A DNA stretch of 32,949 nt, from NCBI RefSeq assembly GCF_000003605.2, contig NW_003155739.1:104446-137394 (forward strand), written 5' to 3'. This document shows positions 482 to 30,857 of the stretch, one piece after another (position 1 is the stretch's first letter; the number at the start of each line of letters is the position of its first letter). The notes under the pieces were generated by a model. The model was not told where the DNA came from, searched no databases, and was given only the letters and a program-made list of their open reading frames with translations. This DNA comes from Saccoglossus kowalevskii. Lineage: Eukaryota; Hemichordata; Enteropneusta; Harrimaniidae. Made by a program: the position numbers and the translations under genes.

Positions 482-3400
482 GTATTTTTATACGCTTTTC
501 TTCATTTATAAACAATACCTTGATATCTCAGATTGTGTAAGAATACTAGTACTTTTTTGTATTTACATTCAAACGCACAGTTCATATTGACTGATTCTAG
601 CTTGTACCACAGTCCCGCTGAGCTTGTACCAACTAACAGCCATTATTTATACACTTCCAGAAACCGTCGTCTGCTGCCAACCATCTCGTGTTTTTGTTGA
701 AAGTTTAGGGTTACAAATTTGGAAGGGTAGATATCCACAGTAATGGATTTGTTTCTCATACAGTTTATTTAGAAACATGGAATTGTAGTGAAATGAAAAT
801 CGTCAACTTGATAATTTCTACAAGTGTTTTTGAATTTATTCGCTGGTGAGTTTAATAATTTGAGTCTGGGCATATGCAGATAAGGCACGTTCAGGATATA
901 AACGGAGTGGAGTTAATTTTAGAACATGTGACCAATTTACACAAAACGAAGTTGAAAATGAAATAAACTTTGTTATAAATTGCTTAGCATACGGGATACA
1001 TACATAATCGCCACATTGAAACTGGCAGATATACTAATAAAGATGTGACTGACAGAAAATGCCAAATCTGTCAAAACAGTGAAATTGAAAATGAGAAACA
1101 CTTTTTCCTTCAATGCAGTCATTACACAGAATTAAGGAACACATTTTTTTAAAAATTCAACATTGTTCCTGATATCTGTTCAGCAGAACAGAATTTTATC
1201 AAATTATTAAAAAGTACACATCAGGAAACCATTATTGAACTTGGTCGACTTATCTATAGTTGTCTTCAAATGAGGAAAAAAAGTTTGAATAAATAAATTT
1301 ACCAGCTGTCTCATATCAGAACCATCAAGAAAAAAATAAATAAATAACACTTTATTGTAATATTACCATCTATGCAATGTACTTATTTTACTTTTGTCTC
1401 AACTGAATTTTCTGTTTTTACTTTTTTATTATCATGATTTTATTCTTTATTGTAATTTTATCTATATCTCAACAGAGATTCGATAACAATAAAGTTATTA
1501 TTATTATTACATAGACTGCATTTATTTAACAAAGTTTAAATTCATATAATTGTAGAGCCAGTAGTAAGAGTGATAAATTTATTTTCATTATGAACAAAGT
1601 TCACTTAAATTCCTGTAGCTCAATTTAATATGGATTCCATAGCGATAAAATACATCGTTCGTTTACACAAAATTTGTACACTCACTGCGCAATGACATTT
1701 CAAAATTAAACCCAGTTAATATTTCTTTTTCAGATTTCCTTCCGTTCACTTGCAGTGGTTGTTCTAAAATTTTTTGGTAAGTAAATAAAAATACTAAATT
1801 TTCTATGTTGTCTTTTGCTTTAGAAAGATGATTTGATGTACATGTAAATAGTTTCATATCTTAGCTGCATGTGATCTGAATTTAATGTTTGAAACAGTAC
1901 ACTAAAAGTTAGCTGTGGTTTTGCTGCGTTTTGGGTCCAGGAAGTTATTTTGCTTCGTCTGTCAATTATATACAAATCGTCAGTATACCCTTACGCCACA
2001 GTGCAGCCCTATGAGCAAAATGGTAAAGTGGAGAGAGTGAACACCGGCCTGTGAAAATGGCCAGAAAACAAAATAAATACCCTGATTTCGGCCAAACAAA
2101 ATATCTCCAGGCGAAGATTACATACTATTGATAAATCGACTGTGTCTTGGTCTTGTTATGTATCCGTTTTTTAATACATTTTGAGCCCTTCTCATTAAAA
2201 AACACAAACCGACGACGAGATGGCAGCCATTTTGTATTTTTGTATTTTGTACTTTGCATATACATGCTAGTTGTATCACAGCAAATTTGTGTCAGTGGCG
2301 TGTAATATATGCTTTGAGGGCACCCTGATGTAGAGATTGATGAACTGTTTGTGTTGTTCATTTGTATTGCTGCCAGGACTATATTAAAAAAAACTTGTTG
2401 TTGGTTTTCAGTTTGGAGCATCGTTCCATGGATGTTCATCAATGTTCAAAGGTGGGTGTTGAATTATTTTGTTTGACTATAAAATAAATATTGTTTGTAT
2501 TTTGTATATTTTCATACTGTTTGATGATAGCTGTCAAATCTAGACATAGTGGTGGTAATATGTATAGAGAGTGTTGGTTATAGTATACGTCAGGCAGACT
2601 TTGTATCACATTTGTGTGCCTTATTAGTCCCTGCATGTTTTGTTTTTAGTCTCATTGACCATTGACCAACTGGTGACCAGTTTTGTCCCTGAAAAAAAAA
2701 AAAATATCAACAGTTGGATATGTCATCCACTGTTCCTCTGGTACGCCTTAATAGGTGGTGGTCGTCGCCTTGCGCATGTGATGACATTAGTGTTGATAAA
2801 CATTGATTTTTCCCAATCCAATGCGCTCTTCAAATGGAAATCACAAGTATGAAGTTTGACCTGGACGCTACTTGTACTGATTACCGCCGGTGACTCCTTC
2901 GGATACCTTCAAATCACCTAAAAAATACTTAATTAAAGCCTAGTAACATCTCAGTTTGTACCCATGTTGGTTTTATTTTCTTGCATCTTTTACCATTTTT
3001 TGGACATGCTTTGTATAGTTCAAAGTCGGTAGAAAGACATAATGGTATTCTTATACACATTTGTGCAATACATTATTTCTGGTGTATCGAATTGGTGTAT
3101 CCTAGCTGTTTCAGAAAGGCAAGACATGGTTACTAAATATTGGTGGTGTGAAAATTCAGACTCAGTGTCTATGTCGTAGGCTGCTCCTCTAATATTATAA
3201 TGCACTGTATTCATAATGGAGACTCAGCAAATTCATTTTAAATGGATCTTGTTTCTTCTGTGATACGATACAATCAAAGATTCACTTTATTGAGTTATAC
3301 ATGTATCTAAGTGTGACATCTATGTCTTCATTGTACAGTGCAATATTTCAGATGAAAAACCAGAATTCCAAGGACCAAAATCTTACAAATGCAGTTTTGA

Positions 3401-6400
3401 ACATTGCGAATGCAAAGGAATTGTTGCCAATAATTTGTGAACACTGTCAAATGCAAGTCTGTCTGAGGTAGGTCATTATTAATTGCCTCATGTAAGGTTT
3501 TGGCTTCATGAACAGTAAACTGTAAATCGCTTTGATTTTGTAAGAGACCAAATTTTGGTGTCAGCAAAAGTGGTTAAATTTTCTAGCAGTGAAAATTATT
3601 CTTGAGTCTTTTTAATAATAAAGATTTGTCTTCAAAAATGTCGTAAAATCGGGTAAATTACTGTTGGTGAAAATAAACAAATTACAGTTTATATTAACGC
3701 ATGTAAATACACTAACTGGTATCTTGCAAAACACCAAATGCTATTGTGTTTTATTTTCTCTCAGTCATCGGCATCAAGTGGATCACAGATGTAGTAAATA
3801 TGAAGCCCCTACCGAAAAGATGACTAAGACTTCTGAACATGTTCGTCAAATTATTGGTAAGATTAATTCTAGAGAGCTTTCCATGTTTGAAATCACAAAA
3901 TTAATGGTGAAATTACAAGTGAAAAATTCATTCAAAAATAAAACATATTATAAATAATTACATGTTGAATTTTGTAAATGCTACTGAAAAAAACTGCAAG
4001 AGGGAGCACTGCAATTCAGCGGCGCCACCAAGTAGGGGAGATAGGGTTCTCCTTACCAGAGAGTTTTTGATAATTCCAAGTTAAAATGGAGCATTATATG
4101 GCTTCCTTTGGCCAAAATTACTATCAGACAGGTCACAGTTGAAGACTGTGGCCACATGTGATCCCTGGTCAATCAGAATTTTATTGTTGCCAGAGGATCT
4201 GGTCCCCAGGGTGCGCTGCGCTGCGCCTCTGTTCCCCTGTTTAAAAAAATTCCTGGCATCAAGAGCTGAAATTGGAAGCTACCCAATTATCATTGATATT
4301 TACAGACAGATTATTAGGTACCATGACAGAATTTTAGCTCCTGAATGTAATAAATTGCAATCTGTGATGCAATCTGCCTACACCTATGAAAGCAAAATTA
4401 TTGGCAGCACAAATGGATAAAAAAAACTGTAAATTGCATTCTGCTATATTTGTGGAGCCCTTTCATCTGGGAGCATTAAGTTGTTTGCCTGGTCTTCCTT
4501 TTAATAATAAAATCAACATCAAATTAATAGATTCATTGTTATTAATGAACAGATTTTAATATTTAACATCCTGGACTCAAACGTAGCAGAAGTGCTATAA
4601 TGCAACAGAAATAGAATCCTGTCAAAGGCTGTAATCTCATTTATTAAAATAAGGTTTTCATGAGAATAACAAAAAGTATGCATTCAATGTACCCAAGAGT
4701 TTTGGAAACAATGTATATGCTTTGGAAGGGCAAGCTTGGCCTAAGGGCATTCCCAAACGCACAGTAAATCCTTCTCAGGAATGAAAATTTTACATGTTTA
4801 GTCAACTTCCTCTTTCTTGTGGCAAAAAATTATATTTATTCTTGTAGACATCAAAACGAAAAAGCCAGAATTCATGGCATACAAAAGATATGTAAAACAT
4901 TTCCTGGAGATAGAGTACTTCATTGCTGTCAGACGGAATAGGTTGACTTCTCACAATAAGAAATGGGGAAATTTTATGAAAAATGTTCTCCTGTCCACTA
5001 CACAATATGTAGATTATATGCACTCAGCAATACAGGGGTCATTGCATCCTCTGCTATGCTTCAGTTGATATGACCACAGAACTGCCATTGTGCATATTTT
5101 GTGGTATTGTTACGTTTGATGGAAAGGAGGTGACATGGGTGGTTCGTGTCTGGGGCTACGTCTTACCAAATACCTTACATCAACATTGGCAACAGCCCTA
5201 AAATGTATTAATTATATAGCTTTGATGACTACTTGTACTAGATTCAAAGAAAGATAAAAGTCCTTTGAAGAAAGGTCCCAGTGGTGTCAAATCTAAAAAG
5301 ACTGCTGCTAAAGTTGCTCTTATGAAAATGAAAATGCATGCTGTAGGGGACAAAGGCTTGCCTCAGGTAAGTAAGTTTATGAACACAAAGAACAAATATT
5401 ATAGCTACACTATATAATATGACTAATACCGAAGTTGTTCGGATAAGCACCCAGGGTTCTGAACATGGGAAAATTGCCAAAAAATAGGGGTGGGCGTATG
5501 CTAAGACATCCCCTGCAAAAAAACGAAAATTCGTGAAAATTGACAACACGCAGATCGAACTGCAGCAGGGAATAGAACGACAAATGAAAACATGCAACAG
5601 AAATAAATGAACAATATGCAACATTAGAAGTTTAACAAAAATAATTTATTCCTTACAATGTGACAAATAAACCAGAAATAATAAAAATCAACAGTTGTTT
5701 GTTGTATTTAAGGTTTCAATGTTTGTATATAAGATTTTACACAATGAAGCACCATCTTATCTATCAGAACTCATTACTATTCCAGTTCCAGTTAGGCAAA
5801 CTCGTTCTTCGTCCACTATAATATTATAAGCAAGAGCATTACAAAAAGAGGGCATTTCCCAAAGCTCTTTGCCTTGCTCCCACTTTGTCTGCTTTCAAGT
5901 CTCAAAAAAACCCTCATCATTACCATATATCTTACCATAGTACAATGATGTGTTTTATCCAGTTTTTAATGTAATCTTATTTTTCTAAATAATTTATTTT
6001 TTATAACTATTTTTTAATGTAAAGTGCATTGAGATTATATGTTTTATGTAATGCGATATATATGAATTAAAAATAATAATAATTATAATAATCACTGCAT
6101 GGCTTTAAGTGCCTTGGTTGGCTGGCTTCATCCACAGATTTTAATGAACTATGATTATGATTGTGTAGGTTGTAGTTTCCCTCTCAATTTGCATGATAAT
6201 ATAATCATATGTTTTACATGCCACATATATTGTAACATTTTTAGTTTGTCGCAGATTGTTTTAATTCCTCTTCAGAATTAATATATGATTTCAAATAAAA
6301 TGTGGAGACTTGAATTTGATTTACATAATTTTTTTTTTCAGAATGAAAGACTATACTTTGAAATATTTTTGCCACTTGGCCACAGTGTACGTAGTCAATC

Positions 6401-9400
6401 CATGTTTTTCTCCAAAGTATGGACTATTGGTAAAACTATTGATAAGATAGCGGAACTAGCAAAATTGAAAAATAACAACAATATAGTTACTGCACAGGTG
6501 AGCTCAATACTACTAGTATATCGATATATACCGTAAGGCCAGACTTTTTTAGTCCCCGTTCGGACGAAGTCCAAAAACGGGGACTTATAACTCGGTCTCC
6601 GTCCGTGCGTCTGTGCGTCTGTCCAGAGTCATATCTCAGAATCCCTTGGACCGATTCCGTTTATTCTTTGCATGTGCCTAGTATTTTATGTGGGACATAT
6701 GCACATGCAGTGGTTTAGCGATTCAATTCAAAATGGCCGACTGGCAGCCATCTTGTTTTTTGAAAATGTTGTATTTTGGACATGCTTTGTCAGTTTTCAT
6801 TCAAACTTAGTACATAGATTATACATGTTAGGATACATGTTCATGACGATTTATTTCACAATTGGATCAAAGATGACCGACTGGCAGCCATCTTGTTTTT
6901 TGAAAATGTTGTATTTTGGACATGCTTTGTCAGTTTTCATTCAAATTTAGTACATGGATCATACATGTTAGGATACATGTCCCCGACCATCCGTGAGTTC
7001 CTGAGTCCGTCCGTGTGTCAGTCCGTCCCTGCATCACTCTGTCCAGAGTCATATTTCAGAATCCTGTGCACCGATTCTGTTCATTCTTTGCATGTGCCTA
7101 GTACCTTATGTGGGACATATGCACATGCAGTAGTTTAGGTGATTTGATTCAAAATGGCCGACTGGCAGCCATCTTGTTTTTTGAAAATGTTGTATTTTGG
7201 ACACGTCAGTTGTCATTCAAACTTGGTACATAGATTATACATGTTAGGATACATGTCCATGACGATTTATTTCGCAATTGGATCAAAGATGGTTGACTGG
7301 CAGGCATCTTGTTTTTTTGTTTTTTTTATGCGGTATCTTGGACGTGCTCTGTCAGTTTTCATTCAAATTTGGCACATACATGTAATTTATACATTTTAGG
7401 ATGCATGTCCATGACAATTTGTTTCAAAATCTGGTCAAGGATGGCCGATTGACAGCCATCTGACTTTTTGGCCTTACTGCTATATTTCCACAATTTATGT
7501 ACCATTTTCATTCATATTTGGCACATACAATCATACATATCAGTGTGTTTCATAATCAGATTAAAGATGGCCGAATAATGGCTGTTTTTTATTTTTGACC
7601 ATATTACTACTACAAGGAACACATGTTTTGATGTAAATAAACTATCTGTTGTATACGCCACTTGGAACTTCAAGTTTCAAGGACACGCTCGCGACAACCC
7701 CTCCGCTTTAATATGACAAGCACAAAGAGAACTTTTAAAAATTTAACGGGGACTGTGTCATTTTTTATTTTTTGTTTCTCAAGTTTTTATAAGGCAAATT
7801 TTTTGAGGAGGGCGAAAAAAAAAAAAAATTAATTCTTTTTTTTTCTATTAGATTTGTGTGATTCTCAAAGAATTGTGAGTGAGATCATTTATCGGAGAGA
7901 AGAAATGAAATAAAATAAAATTTTATTTCATGTATAATCTTGTTTCTCATCTGCGCAAGACTTCGGTACTTTGATTATGATACTCCCACGAAAATGCAAC
8001 TTGGATTTGTTATGCAGCGGGCGAAAAAAAAATTAAGATAAAAATAATCTTTTTTTGTACTTAGAATTCGGCAGGCGTGAGAAATTACACTGAAATAAAA
8101 TTTTATTTTTATTTAATTTTCGGCCCCTGTTCATTCGGCGGGTTTGCGAAACAAGGGATAATAAAAGTCTGGCCTAATGTGAATGTGGGTACATAGCGTT
8201 TTGTGTTCATTCAACACATATCATTAAGAATTCAATAGTGCAATCAATAATACATACCAAGTAACCAGAAATAGACAACACACTTGAATTGGGTGTTATA
8301 GAAGTGATTGTGGAGCAAAAAATTAAAACTTTCTTTTTCAAAATGTTTTTTTTTTAAAACTTCCATGTTCTTTGTTACTAATTTGTTTATACATTGCTGA
8401 ACTATCGTAGCAGTGATTGGTAATTTCTGTATTATCACAACAATGACTTGTACCGGTAATTGTTGACATCGCTAATTACCCTTATCCATAATAAATGACG
8501 GAAGTTGCCAGCTTTGGAAACCCATTAGCAAGCTGCCGGAACCTGACAGGAAACCCCAGAGTATAAAAAAGATTACTTGCTTTACATTGCCCAACGTTCT
8601 CCAGAATGTTAGATCTCATCCAGTATACATTTTTGACTCCCATGTGCGAAGCACAAAATGGGAGTCTTTGCGGTTAGTGTGTCTGTATGTGTATGTGTAT
8701 GTGTGTGTGTATGTGTGTCCGTCTGTTCCACTGATATCTCAAGAACCATACATCAGTTTTTTATGAAACTTGGTGCATAGATGCTCTGGGCTAATGCGCA
8801 GATTTGATTAGTTTTTGGTAAAATTTCATGCATATTAATTACCTAATTTGCATGATAATAAGCTAATTTTTAGCTGTTCCATGATTGTTCCATTGATATC
8901 TAAAGAACCACTTATTGGATTTTGATGAAACTTGGTACATAGATGCTCTGAACTAATGCTTGGTTTTGATTAGTTTTTGGTAAAAATTACCTACTAGTAA
9001 TTACTGATTACCTAATTTGCATAATGATTCGTCAATTTTAGTACTAATCATCACATTTCAATGAAACTTGGTACATAGATGTCATAGAACACTGCACAGA
9101 CCTGGTAGTTTTTAGGGTAATGTCAGTGCATATTAATTACTAATTTGCATAATTAATTAATTTTCAGCTTTTAATGTTTCAAGTAGTAAGCATTACATTT
9201 TAATAAAACTTGGTACATAGATACTCAAGGACTATGCAGGGATTGATTGTTTTGGGATAAATATTTGTGCATATTAATTACTAATTTGCATAATTAGTTA
9301 ATTTTCAGCTTTTCCCACAGATATCTCAAGTACTAATTATCACATTGCAATGAAACTTGGTACATAGATCCTTTAGGACTATCCAGAGACCTGATTAGCT

Positions 9401-11632
9401 TTAGGGTAATTAATTGTGTATATTAATTACCTAATTTGCATAATTAATTAATTTTCAGCTTTTAATGTTTCAAGTAGTAAGCATTACATTTTAATAAAAC
9501 TTGGTACATAGATACTCAAGGACTATGCAGGGATTGATTGTTTTGGGATAAATATTTGTGCATATTAATTACCTAATTTGCATAATTAGTTAATTTTCAG
9601 CTTTTCCCACAGATATCTCAAGTACTAATTATCACATTGCAATGAAACTTGGTACATAGATCCTTTAGGACTATCCAGAGACCTGATTAGCTTTAGGGTA
9701 ATTAATTGTGTATATTAATTACCTAATTTGCATAATTAATTAATTTTCAGCTTTCACACTGATTTCTCAAGTACTTAATCATCACATTTCAATGAAACTT
9801 TGTACATGGATGCTGTAGGACAATAGACAGACCTGGATTAAAATCTGTACATATTAATTACTAATTTACATAATTAACCATTTTTAAGCTATTACACTGA
9901 TATCTAAAATACTAATTATTCCATTTCAATGAAACTTAGTGCAAAGATGCTCTAGGACAATGTACAAACCTGATTAGTTTGGGGTTAAAATCTGTTCATA
10001 TTAATTCCCTAATTAGCATAATAATTTATAATTTTTTTTGGTTCCAATCACATTTCAATAAAACTTGGTACATAGATGGTCTGTTACATTGCGCAGACCT
10101 CGTTAGTTTTCCATTAAAATCTGTTCATATTAATTTTTTGATTTGCATTATTAGTTTTCGGCTTTTCCATCACTATCACTATCTCTGACAAGTAATTTTG
10201 AATTATATTTAATGTGTCTCCAATACTCTTGAGCAGCACATAGGAGTTCTTTCTAAGCTTTCTTGATTGTACATATTTGTGGATGATAATTATAATACAT
10301 TTGATTGTTTATATTTGATTTATATATCTTGTTACTTTAACATGATACACTGACCTGACCTGTTCCCAAATTAGATTACTTGTAATTACTCCAACATCTA
10401 AAATAATTAGCTTATTACAACAGGTCAACACAAAGTTGTTTTTTTCCACAAAAAAAAAATCACAATGGGTTCTATGGCCGTAAAAACAAATATATGTTCT
10501 TATCTGCTCACCAGAGGGCAGCCTGCCACTACACATTGCTCATAAATTAGTAAGTCAGAAAGAGGGGGGGGGCATAAAGTTTGTTTACCAAGATGATAGT
10601 GTGTGACAGGTTTTTTTACAGTACCTATATAATTTCAAATTACTAAGCTTCACCTAACTATTAAAGTCTATTGTTGCCCAAACCTATTATTGGTCAATGT
10701 CAATATAAAAAAAATGCAGTGTATATCACTTACAGGGATTTTTTTAAACAAGGGAACAAGGGCGCAGCGCCCTCATGCCAGGGCCATGCGCCTCCTTACC
10801 CTGGGGAGCAGATCCGCTGGCAACCATAAAATTCTGATTGACCAGGAATCACGTGTGTCCACAGTCTTCAACTGCATGTGACCTGTCTGATAGTAATTTT
10901 GGCCCCAAGGAAGCCATAGAATGCTCCATTTTAACTTAGAATTATCAAAAACTCCACACCCCAGTAGGGAGAACCCTATCTCCCCCACTTGGTGGCGCCG
11001 CCGCTAAATTGCAGTGCTCCCTCTTGCAGTTTTTTTCTAGAAAAACCCTTGTCACACACAATTGAAGTAATTGAATTGAGACCTTGAACATCATGTTTCC
11101 AAAGCCAAAAAAAAGTTTTTCATTGGTTCATCAAAGCTCACATGATTTGACCACTGCCACTGATTGACTATTTTATTTGGTGGACAAGATTATGCTGCCT
11201 GATAGATGATATTTATTTGTTTAGCGCCCTCTATAGACAGATAATGCCTGACATCAATACTTGCATGATTTGACCACGGCCTCTGATAGGCTATTTGCTA
11301 GAGGAAGATTTTAATTGAGTTGCCTGATAGCAATATTTACCTATTTATCGCCCTCTATAGATAGTTAATGGCTTACATCAATACATGTAAAGAGTTACCA
11401 TTTTATAACTCACTTCAGTCTTAATAACTAGTATTCATAATATCGTCAAAATATTTACTTTCAGAAACTACGTATATTTGATGAGAACGGTTGTATTATA
11501 TTACCTTTAGAGCAGTCATTGGATAGGCTGATAGAAAGTGAGGTGTTTCACAGTGGAGGCTCTGTTATAATAGAGTATGTAGATGACAGTTGTGCTAAGT
11601 TGGAAAATATTGAGAGTTATTCATCACGATAA
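427..11632 (+). CDS. ZFAND1: AN1-type zinc finger protein 1 (ZFAND1), 8 coding exons
   Basis: Coding segments are 427-481, 1734-1776, 2412-2451, 3339-3467, 3765-3856, 5242-5366, 6342-6497 and 11465-11632. All have GT-AG borders and fit in phase. With one extra base in exon 4 discounted, the product is 268 residues. Finger 1 ligands are C10, C15, C25, C28, C33, H36, H42, C44; finger 2 ligands are C64, C69, C79, C82, C87, H90, H96, C98. A Lys/Ser-rich linker (about 100-140) leads to an Ala-Lys helix and a ubiquitin-like C-terminal domain (about 162-260). The start MAELDIGKHC sits in a good context (AAAATGG). In mammals the family recruits p97/VCP and the 26S proteasome to arsenite-induced stress granules; yeast Cuz1 is the counterpart. 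That role is inferred by homology. As given, exon 4 carries a +1 shift and a stop at 3438-3440, so the assembled allele would encode about 79 residues. Confidence 0.95.
950..1510 (+). mobile_element. non-LTR retrotransposon (LINE) 3' end, decayed
   Basis: In intron 1, about 1008-1150 translates as HIETGRYTNKDVTDRKCQIC and then EKHFFLQCSHYTELR. This is the CCHC-like knuckle (C-x2-C, then H and C) found at the C-terminus of many LINE ORF2 proteins. After a frame slip at the T7/A5 run near 1146-1155 it continues to TIIELGRLIYSCLQMRKK and a stop at 1294-1296. A 3' UTR follows, ending in AATAAAGTTATTATTATTAT near 1488-1508, a typical simple-repeat LINE tail. It is 5' truncated and inactive. Confidence 0.75.
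1734..1776 (+). CDS. ZFAND1: ZFAND1 exon 2
   Basis: A 43 bp microexon-sized segment after a pyrimidine-rich TTTCTTTTTCAG acceptor. It codes for DFLPFTCSGCSKIF plus two bases of the next Cys, giving ligands C25 and C28. The donor GTAAGT at 1777 is a perfect consensus. It is too short for ORF-based gene finding and was recognised by homology. Confidence 0.93.
2412..2451 (+). CDS. ZFAND1: ZFAND1 exon 3
   Basis: A 40 bp exon coding for the end of C33 and then LEHRSMDVHQCSK. It completes finger 1 with H36, H42 and C44. The acceptor is GGTTTTCAG and the donor is GTGGGT at 2452. The intron that follows is phase 0. Confidence 0.92.
2752..2975 (+). mobile_element. diverged copy of the TTAA-flanked MITE
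   Basis: This stretch in intron 3 aligns in the same orientation with 27081-27300. Shared segments include GTGTTGATAAACATTGATTT, CAATCCAATG and AATGGAAATCACAA. Its left end AGGTGGTGGTCG follows TTAAT at 2748-2752, matching the TTAA-flanked start of the other copy. The right inverted repeat is missing or unrecognisable. Confidence 0.6.
3339..3467 (+). CDS. ZFAND1: ZFAND1 exon 4, with +1 frameshift
   Basis: The first reading frame gives CNISDEKPEFQGPKSYK and then the second-finger start CSFEHCECK. The match then jumps frame to ELLPIICEHCQMQVCL. The spacing C64-x4-C69-x9-C79 fits the family only if one base of the AAAGG run (3414-3418) is surplus. Read as written, the frame reaches TGA at 3438-3440. 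The acceptor is TTGTACAG (ending 3338). A second AG acceptor ends at 3351. The donor is GTAGGT at 3468. A sequencing or assembly indel is the simplest explanation, but a true allele cannot be excluded. Confidence 0.9.
3765..3856 (+). CDS. ZFAND1: ZFAND1 exon 5
   Basis: Completes S89 and then codes for HRHQVDHRCSKYEAPTEK onward, ending in VRQII plus one base. It supplies the last ligands of finger 2 (H90, H96, C98) and the start of the linker. The acceptor is TTTTCTCTCAG and the donor is GTAAGA at 3857. Vertebrate proteins have Arg where this one has Ser89; that residue is not a ligand. Confidence 0.93.
3985..4253 (+). mobile_element. hAT-like non-autonomous element, copy A
   Basis: About 265 bp in intron 5 are closely similar to the reverse complement of 10733-11040. 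Shared blocks include AAAACTGCAAGAGGGAGCAC, GAGATAGGGTTCTCC, AATTACTATCAGACAGGTCA and GGTCAATCAGAATTTTAT. The open frame across it (product reading ATCDPWSIRILLLPEDL) is also present in the other copy, but I think it reflects shared repeat sequence and not a gene. This copy lacks the outer terminus seen in copy B. Confidence 0.65.
4254..4425 (+). mobile_element. LINE ORF2 C-terminal fragment
   Basis: An open stretch ends in a stop at 4418-4420. It reads RAEIGSYPIIIDIYRQIIRY, then HDRIL, and later LQSVMQSAYTYE. This resembles the ElGryPl-idi---iikYw-rl segment that follows the reverse transcriptase domain in many LINEs. It abuts the hAT-like repeat and has no recognisable 3' tail, so it is a broken fragment. 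Confidence 0.5.
5242..5366 (+). CDS. ZFAND1: ZFAND1 exon 6
   Basis: Codes for DSKKDKSPLKKGPSG, then a basic linker and KTAAKVALMKMKMHAVG, ending in GLPQ, all characteristic of the family. The acceptor is ACTTGTACTAG and the donor is GTAAGT at 5367 (phase 0). A long minus-strand open frame over the same bases (5244-5624) is a shadow of this exon. Confidence 0.94.
5700..6092 (+). mobile_element. LINE 3' end (CR1/L2/Rex-like style), decayed
   Basis: In intron 6, about 5728-5825 reads YKILHNEAPSYLSELITIP and then VRQTRSS. After frame slips come RAFPKA, LAPTLSAFKS and similar, a garbled form of the RAFS-AAP-LWN-LP...FKS-LK motif at LINE C-termini. The 3' end has GTAAAGTGCATTGAGATTAT and a tail of AATAATAATAATTATAATAA at about 6068-6092. 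It sits 250 bp upstream of exon 7. Confidence 0.65.
6342..6497 (+). CDS. ZFAND1: ZFAND1 exon 7
   Basis: Codes for 52 residues beginning NERLYFEIFLPLG and ending NNNNIVTAQ. This is the first half of the ubiquitin-like C-terminal domain, including the MFF..VWTIGKTID segment typical of ZFAND1. The acceptor has a long T-tract and the donor is GTGAGC at 6498. Intron 7 is nearly 5 kb and is almost entirely repeats. Confidence 0.95.
6551..6585. other. terminal stem-loop of AGTCCCC-family element
   Basis: The outer arms AGTCCCCGTT (6551-6560) and AACGGGGACT (6576-6585) pair perfectly over 10 bp. Inside are an unpaired C (6561), an inner stem GGAC/GTCC (6562-6565 with 6569-6572), a GAA loop (6566-6568) and a 3' AAA bulge (6573-6575). 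Confidence 0.8.
6551..7760 (+). repeat. AGTCCCC-family hairpin-headed tandem-array element, copy 1
   Basis: The left end is AGTCCCCGTT (6551-6560) and the right end is AACGGGGACT (7745-7754). A GTCCGTGCGTCTGTGCGTCT segment and TCATATCTCAGAATCC follow the left hairpin. Then come tandem units with a core like ATGGCCGACTGGCAGCCAT at 6733, 6873, 7154, 7289 and 7441. A higher-order duplication of about 420 bp repeats the GTCC/ATATTTCAG leader near 7006-7130. Each unit has an AAACTTAGTACATAGATTAT-like phrase. The layout resembles pearl/HINE-type elements of bivalves, which carry tandem cores, but no family assignment is proven. Confidence 0.7.
8631..10175 (+). repeat. GACTCCCAT-family tandem array, copy 1 (10 units of about 144 bp)
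   Basis: A terminal hairpin is followed by a TATGTGTATGTGTGTG microsatellite, GTCCGTCTGTTCC and GATATCTCAAGAACCA. Ten monomers follow, each carrying TGAAACTTGGTACATAGATG or a variant. The AAACT start positions are 8766, 8928, 9064, 9206, 9353, 9497, 9645, 9795, 9932 and 10061. Each monomer ends with CATATTAATTACCTAATTTG and an ATAATTAATTAATTTTCAGC-like stretch. No coding frame is present. Confidence 0.85.
8635..8666. other. terminal stem-loop of GACTCCCAT-family element
   Basis: The outer arms GACTCCCAT (8635-8643) and ATGGGAGTC (8658-8666) pair perfectly over 9 bp. The inner stem is GTGC/GCAC (8644-8647 with 8651-8654), with a GAA loop (8648-8650) and an AAA bulge (8655-8657). The layout matches the hairpin at 6551-6585 although the stem sequences differ. 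Confidence 0.8.
10509..10522 (+). promoter_or_regulatory. CTCF-like motif
   Basis: CACCAGAGGGCAGC matches the core of the CTCF consensus known from vertebrates and flies. It lies in intron 7 between the tandem array and hAT-like copy B. A single 14 bp match in 33 kb has limited weight. Confidence 0.35.
10733..11051 (-). mobile_element. hAT-like non-autonomous element, copy B (inverted relative to copy A)
   Basis: Termini are CAGGGATTTTTTTA at 10733 and, at the other end, CCCTTG ending at 11051, whose complement starts CAAGGGTTTTTCT. CA-GGG ends are usual for hAT elements. The flanks TCACTTA and TCACACA could be a decayed target duplication. The interior matches copy A at 3985-4253 in reverse orientation. 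No transposase is encoded. Confidence 0.6.
11465..11632 (+). CDS. ZFAND1: ZFAND1 exon 8 with stop codon
   Basis: Codes for KLRIFDENGCIILPLEQSL and then the conserved GGSVIIEYVDD strand, ending in SYSSR and TAA (11630-11632). It closes the ubiquitin-like domain. The acceptor is ATTTACTTTCAG. A consensus donor (AAG then GTAAGA) lies 22 nt after the stop, so the 3' UTR may itself be spliced. Confidence 0.95.
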   Translation, partial: KLRIFDENGCIILPLEQSLDRLIESEVFHSGGSVIIEYVDDSCAKLENIESYSSR

Positions 11633-12125
11633 CCACACAGTTTAATATATAAGGTAAGATTAAAATCAATTATACTTATGAGAAAATTTGTGCTTATTTA
11701 TCTACTTGATCAGTTTTGAGAAATCAAAAGTACTTATTATTTGAACATTGTTTATCTGCCTATCCAAACATCTTTCTATAGTTCCATTTCATTTTTCCAC
11801 ACGTGATGTGATCCATTTGCTGACTGCGGGCTATTCAGACAATTTTCATCCAGACCCAGGAATTTGGATTTAGTTAAACTTACCATATTGTATGTCATAT
11901 TTTCTCCATGGTTATATATATTTTATTATAGCAAATGATCGATCTACTTCTAGTTTGATATTTGTAGTTATTGAGCATGCAATTGCTTCACAGGGTACAT
12001 ATGGTTGTAATTATTGCAGCTGGCAAATGTTTTAGAATTAAGCTCTTGAATACTGTAAACTACTGATGGATTTGGCAATCTGTCTAGAATAGAATAAAAT
12101 AAAGTTAAATTGAAATAAAATGTCA
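11633..12125 (+). other. probable ZFAND1 3' UTR and polyadenylation region
   Basis: Sequence after the stop contains a donor-like AAG/GTAAGA (GT at 11654-11655), an ATTAAA at 11659-11664, and the first canonical AATAAA signals at 12093-12098, 12098-12103 and 12114-12119. The exact cleavage site is not determinable. An alternative is a spliced 3' UTR that continues downstream. Confidence 0.4.
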
Positions 12126-13419
12126 GTGTTTGCTAAGAATAAAATAAACACAATGCAATTACTGGGCACAGTCCCTCTATCATACTGATAGAGAGACTGT
12201 GTACTGAGATTACGATAAACTAAATAAAATAAAACATTGATTCAATAAAATAGAAAACGATGATATTGAAAAATAAGGAAGCTTCAATAAATTCATCAGG
12301 ATATTTTTAATGTATTTACTTTTATTTAATGTACAAAACTAAATGTTGGCAGCTGTTTTTCAAAGTTTATAATCGCAACAACGTTTGCTCCAGGCATTCT
12401 TTTTCCTATTTTGAATGATAGTGTTGTTGAGGTTTGACTGACAGTAGTTGTGTATGGCTTCCTCTGACTGACTTTATTAGTCTAAGTATAGAATATCCCC
12501 ACCTGCAGGATATTCTCTTTAGCTTCTTTATTTAACCCTTACGTGGTCAAGTCAATGTAAAAAGTACATGTGGCTGACAAGATTAGAATTAATCTTTTTT
12601 TATACCTGCCTATAGAGTCTGTGCATGAAGAGAACTTCAATGCTCAGCTTAAATGGAATATTATATAATATTTCTTGTAGTATGCAGCACTAATTGCCTC
12701 ATTACTGCTCTAGCTTTAATTTCCTGTAAACTTGGAATAATTGTCTGTTAATATATTCTGTCACACTCCATTCTGTGATATTGCAGCTGGTCACTGAATT
12801 ACTGTTCAGTAATTAGTAATATGTCAAATTTAATTGGTTATATTGCTTCATATAGAATTTCATGTTCAGTATAAATTTAATTAGATTTACTGATAGTTAC
12901 TGTACTCTCATGAGTATGTTGGGACGATTTTACTGCTAATTTTTGGGCCTTGACCTGGTAAAATCTTAGGTGGTAGATATTTTTTTCTGCAGCCCCATCA
13001 CAGGTTGTGTGTTATCCCTCTAAAGAACTTGATTTCAAGAAAAAGGGATGACAGGGTGATTTTGTATATATATCCTGAGTCAAAATGAAATTCAAGTTCC
13101 GTCAGCTTATTGGCTGCTGGGGAGGTCGGTCTTTAAAAAAGTATGTGATTGTATACATGTATGTAACTTAAGGCACAAACAAAATTGCTTTGGTTCCTCA
13201 TTTCCTTAATTTTTACACTTATTTTGTTTATAAAATGTGAATTTCATTTTACCAAATTACAAATTGTATAACTAGTAATGTTTTTCAAGAACACTATATA
13301 AAAATTTCTGTTGCATCAAGGACGTGCCAGTGAATTAGCACAACTTGTTGCGTCGTACTAATTCTTTGTGCGTCAGTGACATGTCATATCAGCTAAGAGG
13401 GTACACTGTTTCATATTCC
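12126..13419. other. non-coding stretch with one hairpin, otherwise unremarkable
   Basis: AT-rich sequence with several AATAAAATAAA runs (12141-12250) and a short GAATTAG/CTAATTC inverted pair at about 13332-13366. No coding exon was recognised on either strand. Confidence 0.5.
12167..12201. other. 16 bp stem-loop downstream of ZFAND1
   Basis: CACAGTCCCTCTATCA (12167-12182) pairs with TGATAGAGAGACTGTG (12186-12201) with one mismatch and a TAC loop. It lies just after the cluster of polyadenylation signals. Confidence 0.65.
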
Positions 13420-13805
13420 AGTTGTTACTATAGATTCTGTTGCTAAGCAACCAAAGTCATTAGATGTAAATAAGGCTGCTGGTTTAGATGGGCTGCAGGC
13501 AAAGCTTTTAACTATTTACTAGTGTTCCAAATTAATTTATTACCTTGAAAATTTCGCTGCTTGTGGAAATATACAAGAGTTTGAGTGATCCCAGTGATTC
13601 TCGTCATGTCTGTACCAATTTTATCTATAGTATTAAACGCTATTTTCATTGTCTACTTACAAAGTAATATTTATCTTTATGGTAAATGATCTTAATCAAG
13701 TTTGTGCCTTCCTTTTGTGCCAGTCAGCTTGAATCTCAGTATGGACAACAAGGAACTGATTGGTGTAATTTTCCTGGACTTTAAATACGAAAAACATTCA
13801 AGCTT
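13420..13805 (+). mobile_element. decayed reverse transcriptase fragment of a LINE
   Basis: Read in shifting frames, the segment gives SLDVNKAAGLDGLQAKLL (near 13460-13515), SVPILSIVLNAIF and LQSNIYLYG (13605-13685), and NKELIGVIFLDFKYEKTF (about 13747-13797). These match the nKa-GlDgi, SvlPilSKvlE and gviFlDl-kAFDtv segments of LINE reverse transcriptases in order. The FLDF block carries the first catalytic Asp. Many frameshifts and stops, and large gaps, show that it is dead. Confidence 0.6.
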
Positions 13806-14029
13806 GTAAACTATACTCACCTTACTTCCATTTGTACCCCATCACTACAAACTTTCGTGGGCTCCATGGTGGCTAATTTAGAACTGCTCACTTGGATGCT
13901 AATATTTTCCCAGGCTGTCATTTTTTTCTGGTACCTGTGGGCGATTTTCTTCAAACTGAGAATTTTTAGACAGTTAATTATGCCCCTTGAGTTTAGTTGA
14001 TACTCAAATATAGAATAGTAGTAAAGCAA

Positions 14030-15360
14030 GCTAGTACGTGCGTGCGTGCATGCGTCCAGACCCGTATTTTAGAAATGCCTGGACCAATCACAATCAAACT
14101 TCACACATGCATCATACATGATATTATACATATGCACGTAAATTTGTTTCATGATCTGATTCAAGATGGCCGAATGGCGGCCATTTTTGTGCTAAAAATC
14201 ATCAAAATCAAGCATTTCCTGGCTGTTTACAGATGGATTTTGTTCAAACCTTGTACATACGTTGGACATTATAGGACCTTGATGCACATCATTTTTTTTT
14301 ACGATCTGATTCAAGATGGCCGAATGGCGGCCATTTTTGTGCTAACAAATCCTAAAATTCAAGCATTTCTTGGTTGTTTACAGATGGATTTTGTTCAAAC
14401 TTGGTATGTACATTAGACATTATAGTACCTTGATGCAAATAATTTTGTTTTTCAGATAAGATTCAAATTGGCTGACTGGCGGCCATTTTGTTTTCATGAA
14501 TGTGGTTCTCGTGCCATATCTCTGACTTGCTTTCACTGATTATGTTAAAATTTTAAATATTCATTATACATCATGCCATAGATAGACAGAGACATTGGTT
14601 TGACGATCCTATTCAAAATGGCCAAATGGTGGCCATTTTTGTGCTAAAAAATCATCAAATATCAAGCATTTCTGGATGAATTTCGTTCAAACTTGGTACA
14701 TACATTAGACATTACAGGTTCCGGATGCACATCATTTATTTTTCAGATTGGATTCAAAATGGCTGTCTGGCGGCCATTTTGTTTTAATGAATGGGCTTCT
14801 AGACCCATATTTCCGACTTGTTTTGACTGATTATGTTCAAATTTTAAATATTCATTATACATAATGTCATAGATAAACAGATATATTGGTTTGACGATCC
14901 TATTCAAAATGACCGAATGGTGGTCATTTTTGTGCTAAAAAATCATCGAATATCAAGCATTTCTGACATTTATGGATGGATTTCGTTCAAACTTGGTACA
15001 TACATTAGACATTACGGGTTCCTGATGCACGTCATTTTATTTTTCAGATTGGATTAATTCTAGAGCCATACACACATGTATCTCTTAAATGCTTTGACTG
15101 ATTATATTCAAATTTTATATATTCATTATACATCATGTTATATATACATGTATTCAAAATGGCTGATTTTGACTGCTGTTCCAGAGCAATATCTCTCAAT
15201 ATGGACAAGTACTTGTTTGACGATCAGATACAAATGTCAATCATTTTAATGTTAAAAAATCATATTCCTGACATGGTTATATTTCAGCTATATTATTATA
15301 AACAAAACTATATATCTTAAATTTGATAACTAACGGGGACTGTGCCATGCATGGCTTGTT
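14030..15360 (+). repeat. AGTCCCC-family element, copy 2 (5'-truncated)
   Basis: It starts in GTGCGTGCGTGCATGCGTCC without the left hairpin and ends with AACGGGGACT (15332-15341) and the palindrome GCCATGCATGGC (15344-15355). Units of about 150 bp carry palindromic cores at 14166, 14316, 14468, 14618, 14759 and 14909. The units alternate between two types, giving a 291 bp higher-order period (14468 to 14759 and 14618 to 14909). Each unit has TTCAAACTTGGTACATACAT or a variant. Confidence 0.75.
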
Positions 15361-15460
15361 TCCTATATTTTACATTCAACTCGTCTAAATTCCATACAAA
15401 ACACCTAAAAAGTATTTTCAGCGAAAATTAATTTCAGCTAAAATAAAGTATTTTACAGTA
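15361..15460 (-). mobile_element. half-copy of the TACTGTA MITE
   Basis: Its reverse complement aligns with the left half of 31437-31639. Shared features are a TACTGTAAAATACTTT end (here at 15445-15460), TTTAGCTGAAATTAA, a GTGTTTTGTATG-like block and a GAGTTGAATGTAAAATATAGGA-like block (here 15361-15382). It directly abuts the right end of the preceding repeat element. Confidence 0.6.
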
Positions 15461-15974
15461 GCCTTTTTAACTTACTTAATTAAAATTACTGGCTCTTTCT
15501 AGTAGTATACATGTCACCTGACTAGTTATGCTCAATGCACACATACATATTAACATACTGAACGGCAATCTTCTGAAGAATTTCATTTGTACTAGCAGCT
15601 GGCAACATCACATATTGATTGTCGGAATTGTGTGCTTGCTGTACTGCTTCACCTCTGGTCAGAATTAATGCAGCTCAAAGGTGAATTTGTTTATGAACTC
15701 ATGATCAATAAAATATTGTGTGATTTGATGTACATATATTATTCCATACCACTGAATCATCTAGTGTCATTGATCATCCAATACTACATATTCTTGGTGA
15801 AACAGATGGCAGATCTAGTTAGGTACATTCCACTACTATAATCCTGCATGTATTACTTATACAGATGGATTTCTAGTTAAGAAAATAATAAAATCAACCA
15901 AAAAATTTCCATCTGGGTCTAATATGTCCTAATACATTACCTTTTATTGAATTAGATAATACCATTTTATTTTT
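15461..15974. other. non-coding stretch, no feature recognised
   Basis: AT-rich DNA between two repeat copies. A 69-codon open frame at 15632-15841 has no recognisable similarity or splice context and is probably chance. Confidence 0.4.
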
Positions 15975-16590
15975 AGTCCCTGTTCGAACACAGCTTGAAA
16001 ATGCGAACATGTGTCTGTCAGTCAGTCTGTCTGTCAGGACATGTATCTAAGGCCAAGGCATGGCTGATCACATTCAAACTTCACACTTGGTTCATACATT
16101 GGATATTATGAGTACCGTGGGTACAATTGATTCACATCATTTTGTTTTTTAGATCAGATTCAATATAGCCAACCAGTGGTCATTTTGTGATTCCATCCTG
16201 TAGTTCTTGCCTGATCATGTTCAAGTATATGTATCATATATGATGTCACACATACCACATTAAGATTTGACAATCAGATTCATTTTGATGTTACAAATGC
16301 ATCAAAGTCAAGCATATTTGCCATTAGGGACCCAGATCTTGCTTGCCCTACTTTGTACATACATATAACTGGTTCATAATGTTTTTTTCAGGTCAGATTT
16401 GAAATCGATAGCCAATAAAAATGCTGTTCTAGCACCATGTCTCTGACATGCATTTACTGATCGCAATCAAACTTTACAACTAGACATTATATCATTTTGT
16501 TTCATATTCTGATTCAAAACGGCAGGCCCATTTTAGTTTTGTTTACTATTGAACCAACAGGGACTATGTCATCTCATGATGTAACTTGTT
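15975..16590 (+). repeat. AGTCCCC-family element, copy 3 (diverged)
   Basis: The left end is AGTCCCTGTT (15975-15984) and the right end is AACAGGGACT (16556-16565). They are exact inverted complements, although both differ from the copy 1 ends. A GTCTGTCAGTCAGTCTGTCT segment follows, and then weakly preserved units (ATCACATTCAAACTTCACAC and GTGGTCATTTTGTGATT). The inner terminal hairpin has decayed. Confidence 0.65.
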
Positions 16591-17574
16591 GCATGATACA
16601 ATTGGATCATTGGGTAAAACCGATTTTCTCATTCAGATTCTAAATCCACATTATAAATAATATCAAATCACACCTGTAATGCTATACTTTTAACCCTCTG
16701 TTGGAAAACTCATTTGAACATATGAATCAGGTGTTACACAGTGCTATTTTGGAACCCTGAATTCTTTGCTAAACACTGAGATAAAAGATGTGCACAGGAG
16801 GACACCCTCTAATTACACCATGATGTCCAAAATGGCAGGGAATAAACAAACCATTGTGAACAAGTGAGAGGATAAGTCATTGGGAAAAATGAGATTCAAT
16901 TTGAACAGACAGACAAATTTTTTACTCAAGTTTTTACTCAACAAATTTTGGCTATTTTTGTCCGAATCTTTTGAAGAAAAGTACAGACTATAAACATGAC
17001 TACTGTATTTTGTGAATTTTCAATGAAAAGATGAAACTGGTGGTGAAAACAGTCATAAATATGCATTTCACTATTTTAATCTTTAATCTTCATATAATTA
17101 ATCACATTACCTAGTATTTAGTGATGTAATTTGATACACACTCTATTAATTCTATCCAAGTGCATACTTTGCAGTATCCATACATCTTCCCTATCCAACT
17201 GTTTGATGTATGAAGTCCTGGGCATTATAGTGACAATTAATGAAAAAATGTTCATCATGCATTTCAGATAATACTACAACATTTATGGTACACTGTAAAT
17301 TTTGGAGGTATTTGTATATAATCCTCTGATATTTTCTATTAGTTTTATGTCAGGTTAGAGAAGATTTTTGTTAATACGAGATAAAGGAAGGAATTGTAAC
17401 AAGATTTCTGAACTAAAGAGGATACAGACAGAGTGATGTAATATATTAACTGGAATGAAACTGGCTGATACAAAAATGCAAACTATTTATTTGTATGCAT
17501 GTTTTGGTTATAGTAACTGTTTTATTGCATGCAAAGCCTATGTATCGAACTATATTATTTTTGTTGCCATGCAG
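16591..17574. other. non-coding stretch, no feature recognised
   Basis: AT-rich single-copy-looking DNA. A direct repeat of TTTTTACTCAA near 16919-16941 is the only local structure seen. No exon was recognised. Confidence 0.4.
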
Positions 17575-18800
17575 ATATAAACCACAAACATGTATTATTA
17601 TTGAGGTTGTAAACTGCACACTTGTTTTCAAATTGAGATTGTAAACATCATACCTGTATTCATGTGGAGATTGTACACATCGCACCTGTATTCACATGGA
17701 GATTGTAAACGTCACACCTGTATTCATGTGAAGATTGTAAACATCACACCTGTATTCACATGGAGATTGTAATCGTCACACCTGTATTCATGTGAAGATT
17801 GTAAACATCACACCTGCATTTGTGTGAAGATTGTAAACATCATACCTGTATTCATGTGGAGATTGTACACATCACACCTGTATTCACATTGAGATTGTAA
17901 ACGTCACACCTGTATTCATATGAAGATTGTAAACATCACACCTGTATTCACATGGAGATTGTAAACATCACACCTGTATTCATGTGAAGATTGTAAACAT
18001 CACACCTGCATTCATGTGAAGATTGTAAACATCACACCTGTATTCATGTGGATATTGTAAACATCGCACCTATATTCATGTGGGGACTGTAAACATCATA
18101 TCTGTGTTCATGTGAAGATTGTAAACATCACACCTGTATTCATGTGAAAATTGTAAACATCACACCTGCATTCATGTGGAAATTGTGAACATCATACTTG
18201 TATTTACATGGAGATTGTAACTTGCACACTTGTATTCAAATTTAGATTGTAAATATTGCACCTGCATTGACGTGAAGATTGTAAACATCACTGTTGTATT
18301 TAAATGAACATCATACTTGTATTTATTGAGAGTGTAAACCACACACCTGTATTCATGTTAAAATTGTAAACATCACAACTGTATGCATTTGCAGATTATA
18401 ACTATCATACCTGTATTTATGGGAAAATTGTAAACATCACAACTGTATTTATTTAAGTTTTTAAATATCAACTATATTCAAATACAGATTTTGAAGATAA
18501 GACTTGTATTCAAATTATGTTTGTAAACATCACACCTGTATTTATGTGGAGATTGTAAACATCATACCTGTATTCATGAGAAGATTGTAAACGTCACACC
18601 TGTATTCATGTGGGGATTGTAAACATCGTATCTGTATTTATGTGGGGATTGTAAACATCATACCTGTATTCATGTGGAGATTGTAAACATCATTCTTGTA
18701 TTCATGTGGAGATTGTTAACATCACACATGTATTCAAATGGAGATTTAAAAAAATCACACTTGTATCTATATGGAGATTTTGAACATCACACTTGGAGAA
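17575..18800. repeat. minisatellite, 32 bp unit, about 37 copies
   Basis: The consensus unit is CACACCTGTATTCATGTG followed by GAGATTGTAAACAT (32 bp). The centre (17690-18180) and the 18520-18720 block are regular. The edges and 18180-18510 are degenerate, with units drifting in length. In 17690-17960, units with TTCACATGGA alternate with TTCATGTGAA units, giving a 64 bp dimer. About twenty units keep TGTAAACA exactly, and most keep the CACCTG E-box. Confidence 0.9.
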
Positions 18801-19690: not shown

Positions 19691-19739
19691 TTGAGTATAT
19701 TATTTGTTTTCAGAAAAAGAAATATTTTAAAAGCGACTC

Positions 19740-27382: not shown

Positions 27383-29360
27383 TAATTAATGTTTTACAAT
27401 TTTTTTTAAATGCTTTTGTTTGTTATAGATTTGAATATGTAAGGCAGGGTGTTCCAGTGATTTGTTGTTGAATAGGCAAAGCAGTGCTGGCTTTATAGAT
27501 TTGTGATGTTGAAAACTTTCAAGCAACTACATAAGATGCAAATTGAACTAGGCTGCCACAAACAACCTAAAATATCTAAGAAAAAAAGTGCAATGTTGTA
27601 GAAGATGAAATTCATTTTATTATAACCTGTGACAATTACAATATTGGGAACAAAAATGTATAGCCATTTCTCAAAACAAATTCTAAAGTTCATCAGACAG
27701 GTAGTTCACTATTTAAAAACTTCGTTTAGATATTATTATTATATACCCAGTAGTGATGATATTAGCAAAAACAACTTTTTTGAAGGTAATGCACTTGTGT
27801 AAAATAGGTGCTCTAAAATTTAGTTTCAGCAATGTTTACAGAGAGACATGTACAGTTTATGTGACAACGAGGACTACCAAATATGTGGCAGCTTTCAAGG
27901 CAAATGCATTATAAAAATTGGACATTAACAAAAATATGTATTGCAGTGAATCATTGTTGAATGTGTTTGAATGTACTGCACCTAATCATTATTACTAGAA
28001 GAAAATATGAGTGAAAAACCACTGAAGAACAGAAAACAATGGAAGAACAGAAAATTTGCATATACACAGTTTGTGACAGTGTCTTTTAAAACCTATTTTG
28101 AAAATTAAAATAAATTGTACCTTGCGGCAATATAAATATAATGATATAAAAAATAATTGGAGATCCCCATGCTATGCTAGGATTCATAATAAGTGGCATC
28201 AATTTTGTTGAATTGATAAGAAAGAACTGCCTCGTAGCCATTTGTTGTCCACAAACTGCACTTATTTTACTGCACAATTAGACAATTTATATTTAATAGT
28301 TTCCTGAATGAAAGTAGTGAGTAAAAAATTTCCTATATAGAGATATATAAATTTACATTGAACACCAAATGTGGTTAGACATCCTTTGACTATTCTCCTT
28401 CCCAGAGTTCCTTGCGGTTAGAACACCCAAAGTATCTCTGCCACCACACACTGCCATTTTGTGGTGAAACACCACCAGACTTTTACTACACGTATCATTT
28501 GTGTATTTTTGTTATTAGAGGGCTCTCGTGTTAATTTATTCCTACTGGAAAACAAGTTATAAAATATTTTATCGATAGCTGATAACGATTTTTCCGTAAA
28601 TGCACTGTCAAAGGTGAAGTAGTTATAATTTACAAAAATAAATAATTTCATCCCGGAACAGTTACTAAGCAAGGTGTTACTTGGTTCATCAAAACTGACC
28701 ATCCTGTCGATTGCCAGACAAAGGAATATAAAGAAACGATTGCACTTAAACGTATTGACGGCTAAATCGTCCTACTGTCTGTGTTATGGAAAGAAAGAAA
28801 AAAAGCTTCTAACTTTTAAAACAGTCAGTATATGCAAATAACAGGTACACATTTGTCGGGTTCGAAAATCAAACACTTGCATGGTAATGTTTTGGTGAGC
28901 ATCTTGAAAGTAGTGCCACTGTCATGCATTGACCAATCAACGATGAGCATAAGATCGTATGGTGGCAGAGATATATTCGTAATAGAACTCTGCCTGGGAG
29001 ATTGTATTATATGCTCATTTTCCCTTGTTTTTATAGTATAAAAAATGAAATATTTTGTAGACTAGAATATAAAATAAACTATTGATCAAGCAAAATAAGC
29101 TGCCAGATCATTCCATTCTGGTAATCCTTTGTTATTCAACTGTACTGTACTGTGACATATTTTTTCGAGAGTTTTTTTTTATGCACATTAGCAGATTTCA
29201 TGAATGAAAAAATTGCTAATGTCTCTATTAAAAGCAGGGTACAGTTAACGAACCAACAAGTTCATCATGACAGACACTTTCCCTACCGAGGACCATGTCT
29301 TCAACCATTTGTTATGAATTCAGCAATGTGTGCAGCTTTAACAGATTTTAGTCTGTCTGT
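27383..29360. other. gene-free stretch, no feature recognised
   Basis: AT-rich DNA without recognisable exons. The open frames at 28418-28702 (minus) and 29152-29454 (plus) have no domain similarity that I can see, and the latter runs into the repeat at 29361. Confidence 0.4.
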
Positions 29361-29865
29361 TTTTGACTCCCATATGCGAAGTCTTTGTGTGTCTGCCTGT
29401 TCCACTGATATCTCAAGAACCATATGTTTGTTTTGGAAGAAACTTGATGCATAGATGCTCTGGGCTAATGTGCAGATTAGATTAGGTGTTGGATTAAATC
29501 CATGCATATCAATTACCTAATTTTCATAATGATTAGTCAATATTCAGTGTTTCCACAGATGTCTCAAGTACTATTCATCACATTACAATGAAACATGGTA
29601 CATAGATGTCATAGGACAATTCACAGACCTGATAAGTTTTGGGTTAATACATTTACATGAAAGTCTGTGCATATCAATTACCTGATTTGCATAACAATCA
29701 GTTATCAGGTTTTTCATCAATATCTTAAGTACTTAAATCTTATTTCAATGAATCTTGGTACATAAATACTCTAAGACAATGCAATGATCTAATTAGTTTT
29801 GGGTGTATATACATCCATAATAATTACCTAATTTGCATAATAACTTATATTTTGGCTTTCTCTCG
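29361..29865 (+). repeat. GACTCCCAT-family element, copy 2 (3 units)
   Basis: It starts TTTTTGACTCCCATATGCGAAG (GACTCCCAT at 29365-29373) and continues GTCTTTGTGTGTCTGCCTG, CACTGATATCTCAAGAACCA and monomers with GAAACTTGATGCATAGATGC, TGAAACATGGTACATAGATG and TGAATCTTGGTACATAAATA. The hairpin's 3' side (inner arm and outer arm) is missing, as if deleted between the GAA loop and the following TCTTTG. Confidence 0.75.
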
Positions 29866-30776: not shown

Positions 30777-30857
30777 CGACCACTATAACCATCAAAATAC
30801 AAATACATGTAACAGTTAACTGTTACATGTTTTGTATTTTGATGGTTATAGTGATCG
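30777..30857. repeat. 81 bp near-perfect palindrome
   Basis: The left arm runs 30777-30817 and the right arm 30818-30857. They meet at GTTAAC with no spacer. Over 30781-30853 the arms differ only by one extra T in the left arm (within AAATACATG against AAACATG). One further mismatch precedes the outer CGA/TCG pairs. Confidence 0.9.

Follow-up and report, generated by a model that had tools for sequence, protein, structure and literature searches.

The stretch of DNA analysed here (the window, 32,949 nt) carries two tandem arrays, each headed by a nested hairpin, and the question raised by this locus is whether such hairpin-headed arrays represent a new kind of mobile element or a kind already described. 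The first-pass annotation had raised the possibility of an undescribed class, comparable in layout to pearl/HINE elements, in which two stems without any common sequence keep the same shape. We refer to the two arrays as E1 and B1; E1 belongs to family A, of which the window holds three copies (E1, E3 and E4), and B1 to family B, with two copies (B1 and B2). The coordinates of all the features are collected in Table 1.

Table 1. Positions of the elements of families A and B and of the terminal repeats that surround E1, numbered from the first base of the window.
Feature	Position	Strand	Remarks
Probable MITE, left terminal repeat AGGCCAGACTTTT	6536..6548	+	
E1, T-run at 5' boundary	6546..6550	+	read directly
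E1, hairpin	6551-6585	+	outer stem 10 bp, inner GGAC/GTCC, loop GAA, 3' AAA
E1, 5' subTIR / ATIR (outer 5' arm) AGTCCCCGTT	6551..6560	+	exact complement of 6576-6585 and 7745-7754
E1, inner mini-hairpin GGAC-GAA-GTCC	6562..6572	+	
E1, IR (outer 3' arm) AACGGGGACT	6576..6585	+	
E1, GTCY-rich leader, microsatellite-like	6593..6625	+	5 GTCY in 6593-6630 against 0.15 expected
E1, ATATCTCA phrase and tandem array	6631..7600 (bounds approximate)	+	
E1, 3' subTIR AACGGGGACT and conserved tail GTGTCAT	7745..7761	+	17-mer in 3/3 family A copies
Probable MITE (same), right terminal repeat	8163..8175	-	
B1, hairpin	8635-8666	+	outer stem 9 bp, inner GTGC/GCAC, loop GAA, 3' AAA
B1, 5' subTIR (outer 5' arm) GACTCCCAT	8635..8643	+	TTTTT at 8630-8634 just before
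B1, inner mini-hairpin GTGC-GAA-GCAC	8644..8654	+	includes GCGAAGC
B1, IR ATGGGAGTC	8658..8666	+	
B1, leader of GTCT/GTAT/GTGT units	8675..8730	+	
B1, array	8734..10180 (end approximate)	+	~150-bp monomers with ATATCTCA and AAACTTGGTACATA
E3, third family A copy	14045..15348 (start approximate)	+	5' hairpin missing, 3' subTIR intact
E4, family A copy	15970..16572	+	both subTIRs (AGTCCCTGTT / AACAGGGACT) differ from E1 at the same pair; IR decayed
B2, second family B copy	29360..29860 (end approximate)	+	most of hairpin 3' half missing

The window looks eukaryotic and is probably animal DNA. One half of the Pfam domain UBL_ZFAND1 was recognized at 6330-6518 (E 6.1e-11, above the family cut-off) and the other half at 11456-11629 (E 0.0022, below it), and E1 and B1 therefore both lie in the gap between these two predicted exons, which belong to a ZFAND1-like gene. 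A ZFAND1-like AN1 finger piece was also observed at 3340-3471, with its cysteine-rich start and its later part in two different frames. No Helitron domain was found in the 10 ORFs scanned, out of the 33 of at least 75 aa present in the window.

Concerning the hairpins, the outer stem, the inner 4-bp stem, the GAA loop and the 3' AAA described in both elements by the first-pass annotation were confirmed by folding: as single-stranded DNA, the E1 and B1 sequences on both strands (four strands in all) were each more stable than 200 out of 200 of their own shuffles, with z between -3.6 and -5.5. The corresponding stretches of E4 and B2 showed no such folding, 116 and 67 of 200 shuffles, respectively, being at least as stable. 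It had also been stated that every structural element is in the same place, and this is true for the stems, the loop and the AAA, but not for an unpaired C at 6561 in E1, which has no counterpart in B1; the distance from arm to arm is 15 nt in E1 and 14 nt in B1. We then compared the frequency of such structures with 100 dinucleotide-preserving shuffles of the window. The window has 26 inverted repeats whose arms measure 9 bp, 13 per strand, where the shuffles average 4.4 for the two strands together; two of the 13 on the + strand enclose an inner 4-bp GAA hairpin, a combination that occurred 0 times in the 100 shuffles. The pentamer CGAAG alone is not enriched in the window (17 occurrences against 12.1, with 11 of 100 shuffles reaching 17).

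The two stems are not devoid of common sequence, as had been supposed. The structural alignment of E1 with B1 compares 13 pairs, of which 6 are unchanged and 7 have both bases replaced; anchoring the outer stem at its inner end gives 7 and 6 instead. In no pair is a single base changed. Such double-sided changes look like those left by kept pairing, a resemblance drawn from two sequences only, for which selection is inseparable from an older shared origin combined with the need for complementary ends. The idea of changed stems with a kept hairpin has already been argued for Helitron2, on the basis of compensatory changes between Helitron-1N1_CQu and Helitron-1N2_CQu (PMC3627910). An intact 5' subTIR with its adjacent complementary IR was kept by two of the five copies, E1 alone in family A and B1 alone in family B, the hairpin being decayed in E4, mostly deleted in B2 and missing in E3.

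As regards the ends of family A, the local IR and the 3' subTIR of E1 have an identical ten-base sequence, the exact complement of its 5' arm. A 3' subTIR is present in all three copies, and in the two that possess a 5' arm it is the exact complement of it; in E4 the two ends are exact mutual complements despite differing from those of E1. The 17-base 3' tail AAC[GA]GGGACT[GA]TG[TC]CAT occurs in the three copies, and allowing up to 3 mismatches yields no other match in the window (0.39 expected); the 5' end TTTTTAGTCCC[CT]GTTCG is found in two of the three (0.08 expected). In family B, a 5' end of 22 bases is common to B1 and B2 (0.00 expected). These patterns were written from the copies themselves, and so the counts indicate that there are no further copies and do not constitute an independent test. 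Judged by eye, a 3' palindrome is clear only in E3, where 12 nt, GCCATGCATGGC (15344-15355), overlap the 3' subTIR; it is weak in E4 and none was seen in E1, and none of the three 3' ends of family A folds better than its own shuffles. Inside E1, the block 6618-6990 is repeated at 7038-7418 with 85% identity.

For family B the 3' subTIR was not found in either copy, within the 450 nt searched after each array: the best match has 2 mismatches after B1 (at 10240; about 0.3 such matches expected) and 3 after B2. The bases CACAAAATGGGAG of B1 have no counterpart in B2, where the loss of hairpin sequence at 29360-29400 resembles what deletion of a folded or slipped strand would leave.

TTTTT directly precedes all four surviving 5' ends of families A and B, and starts at 225 of the 32949 positions of the + strand. 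In E1 this T-run belongs to a repeat of another element, a probable MITE at 6533-8178, with terminal repeats of 12-13 bp, TAA on both sides and E1 in the T-run of the left one. When the repeat is read as 12 bases, GGCCAGACTTTT (from GGCC), TAA stands on both outer sides. With at most 1 mismatch, AGGCCAGACTTTT matches the window at these two terminal repeats (2 matches, 0.04 expected) and nowhere else. Taking E1 out brings the left repeat next to the downstream TTGTTTCTCAA, which matches TTGTTTCGCAA on the inner side of the right repeat, and the terminal repeat is thereby partly restored: the alignment score is 49 for the joined flank, compared with 34 and 36 when the two sides are kept apart. 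Among background windows 23 of 9264 attain the junction score of 20, as do 12 of 1862 T-rich windows. E1 was probably inserted into the T-run of an older MITE terminal repeat; the 5' boundary of the element would therefore fall at the hairpin, with which its end seems to coincide, as the first-pass annotation had expected, and the exact boundary base is not fixed because the boundary runs through T.

The same region bears on a different explanation, namely that the arrays are themselves cut-and-paste MITEs, moved by a DDE transposase, and that their inverted arms are ordinary terminal repeats. Family A is indeed flanked by inverted arms, and E1 lies within terminal repeats of 13 bp; these repeats, however, must be assigned to the surrounding element (6536-8175, which itself fits a MITE), because E4 has the family A ends without them and the window contains no other example of them at up to 1 mismatch. 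Moreover, the family A ends are asymmetric, in that the 5' arm has a 3'-arm copy next to it and, in 3/3 copies, a conserved tail extends beyond the 3' arm, so that matching extreme ends are absent, and no target duplication beyond T was seen at the single junction examined, that of E1. We regard this explanation as improbable.

Besides the hairpin, the leader, the phrase and the monomer motif that had been reported downstream in both arrays were found again in both families. GTCY exceeds its expectation in six of the six leaders counted (two of them in E1), from 5 against 0.15 in E1 to 1 against 0.16 in E3. The phrase ATATCTCA is located at 6631 in E1 and at 8734 in B1. Allowing up to 3 mismatches, AAACTTGGTACATA gives 28 matches on the + strand, 25 of them within the five copies, against a simulated mean of 3.9 in 30 sequences. 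Beyond AAACTTGGTACATA the monomers of the two families are not visibly related, the best local match being one of 25 nt with a score of 30, inside the range of 200 shuffles (mean 17.7, maximum 31). This last result is what would be expected if A and B were unrelated satellites whose hairpins agree by chance or convergence; against this stand the nested hairpin, which the shuffles did not reproduce, and the T-run, hairpin, leader and ATATCTCA, which follow one another in identical order in E1 and B1, and we consider such a coincidence even less probable than a DDE-moved origin. A third possibility, that the hairpin acts as RNA (a ribozyme or a structured transcript) and spreads as a retro-element or satellite RNA, agrees with the good folding of both hairpins as RNA on both strands, but no Rfam family reaches its gathering score in the window, the only match with E up to 1 in 6000-17000 is a weak mir-7 match away from the hairpins, and the T-runs and the 3' subTIR would be left unexplained, making it the least credible of the three.

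Outside the window, no stretch with the hairpin or monomer patterns was found in viral contigs and prokaryote genome contigs; blastn gave no match of B1 in plasmids or phages and no match of E1 in phages. A monomer 19-mer in viral contig L001 lies inside phage-like coding DNA and was taken as a chance occurrence; the second viral-contig match is L002. Printed copies of the shared phrase were also looked for, and the search for sequence strings in literature text gave only matches unrelated by title.

Other repeats are present in the window. Dispersed inverted pairs were observed at 3986-4255 / 10733-11037 (82% identity) and at 15361-15460 / 31437-31551 (79%), the second adjoining the 3' end of E3. 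A minisatellite with a 32-bp unit occupies 17591-18792, in rows of 21.9 and 15.3 copies. About 3 copies of a 157-bp unit lie at 19869-20393, where the ORF 19691-20023 has a HlyIII match below cut-off (E 0.0032) and is perhaps a tandemly repeated exon. Finally, an inverted repeat at 30777-30857 has 27-nt arms, 96% complementary, with 27 nt between them.

Taken together, we consider it very likely that the two arrays are copies of two diverged families of HINE (a DINE-1-like, pearl-like kind of element), passengers whose movement would depend on Helitron2/Helentron rolling-circle transposons. HINE, DINE-1 and pearl elements are the non-autonomous kin of Helitron2/Helentron (PMC4067079, PMC7492417, PMC3627910). 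Family A is placed among the HINEs because its arm, IR and 3' subTIR, their spacing, the GTCY leaders and the T-runs match the published anatomy; family B is placed beside them, less certainly, because its 3' end was not found. Against the HINE reading stand this gap in family B, the doubtful 3' palindrome, the retention of the hairpin by two copies out of five and the lack of a Helitron domain in the 10 ORFs scanned. An undescribed class is not supported, since family A agrees with the HINE description component by component, and the comparison with pearl/HINE made by the first-pass annotation was right beyond layout, extending in family A to the subTIR, the IR, the leader, the array and the 3' subTIR. 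A canonical Helitron (Helitron1, with a 5'-TC start and no 5' hairpin) was discarded: the 5' ends read TTTTTAGTCC and TTTTTGACTC, and E1 and B1 have the hairpin.

Two HINE families, A with more confidence than B, suggest how the arrays could have moved. The arrays would be mobilized in trans: an autonomous Helentron at another genomic site would supply a Rep-helicase-endonuclease that makes a nick at the T-run and peels away the + strand. The hairpin would fold on the peeled single strand and mark the 5' end; late in replication the 5' arm would leave the local hairpin and pair instead at the 3' end, marking where copying stops. The IR and 3' subTIR of E1, being identical over their ten bases, offer the 5' arm two equivalent partners, and a late swap of this kind was proposed for Helitron2 by Bao and Jurka (PMC3627910). 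The matching altered ends of E4 support the arm-swap model weakly; in each arm the changed site falls on a CpG, so that independent CpG decay in the two arms could also account for it. The C-GAA-G tip might be an unusually stable DNA turn that aids hairpin formation, perhaps more strongly for one of the two strands.

This tip caps both GGAC-GAA-GTCC in E1 and GTGC-GAA-GCAC in B1. Mini-hairpins with GNA loops are extraordinarily stable and nuclease-resistant, and a GCGAAGC fragment melts at as high as 78 C (PMC4686876); the stability attributed to the tip rests on that work, as seen in its available text, because the DNA folding parameters assign the same energy to GAA and to the five other loops tested (six in total). 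A GAA loop closed by C-G is also printed in the 5' hairpins of FoHeli1 and FoHeli2 of Fusarium oxysporum, which have ATIRs of Helitron2 type (PMC5148889), and in the available text of that paper the loop is given without comment. FoHeli1 and FoHeli2 differ from our elements in having a single stem (6 pairs, as folded here) instead of an outer and an inner one, in being autonomous and in inserting at TNAT sites; joined-end amplicons of FoHeli1 suggest a circular intermediate, and the 5' hairpin of FoHeli3 to 5 is described as degenerate (PMC5148889). We found no discussion linking Helitrons with GNA/GAA mini-hairpins in the open-licence literature text. It is possible, and we put it forward only tentatively, that C-GAA-G has been retained over deep divergence, in animal HINEs and fungal FoHelis alike, as a structural mark of the 5' end in Helitron2/Helentron elements: an extraordinarily stable turn of single-stranded DNA that the transposase might read as shape and not as sequence, leaving the arms free to vary provided that arm, IR and 3' subTIR change together. 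The four elements, probably from two independent lineages, are too few for a rule. If the tip were general, it would offer a concrete structural signal in the DNA, open to testing, by which Helentron/Helitron2 enzymes may locate the 5' end, and a means of searching for elements with little arm sequence in common.

As a find, the addition of two HINE families is ordinary, and the comparison with known systems clarifies where they stand. According to the available text on Helitron2 (Bao and Jurka 2013, PMC3627910), a 5' ATIR lies inside a 5' hairpin and a second ATIR near the 3' end, an arrangement present in E1, B1 having the hairpin with no 3' ATIR found; compensatory changes between related elements and insertion after TTTT, in Chlamydomonas elements, are further likenesses, while a tandem array and a nested inner hairpin are not mentioned in that text. 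HINE/DINE-1-like elements (Thomas et al. 2014, PMC4067079) share with ours the subTIRs, an IR about 3 to 22 bp from the 5' subTIR (in DINE-1), the microsatellite, central repeats in some of them and the lack of coding capacity; their T-rich target without target-site change has a possible counterpart here in the T-runs before the four 5' ends and in the one junction examined. They differ in that the available text does not mention a nested GAA mini-hairpin in the spacer, and in the 3' palindrome, here weak or missing in two of the three family A copies. In the DINE-1-like elements of Calliphora the subTIRs are 11 bp long, the IR is partial and the repeats are rich in GTCY; the DINE-1-like Helitron3_Cv lacks the 3' subTIR, the part not found in family B (PMC3630058). 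In the bivalve Cg_HINE and pearl elements (Vojvoda Zeljko et al. 2020) the spacer is 1-12 bp, against 15 and 14 nt here, and the available text makes no mention of an inner hairpin (PMC7492417). The bivalve elements, oyster HINEs among them, nevertheless combine subTIR, IR, a GTCY/GTCC/GTCK microsatellite, tandem monomers (about 160 bp in pearl, comparable with the tandem monomers of our arrays) and a 3' subTIR, and in them too, as in the window, HINE families unrelated in sequence coexist in one genome (PMC7492417).
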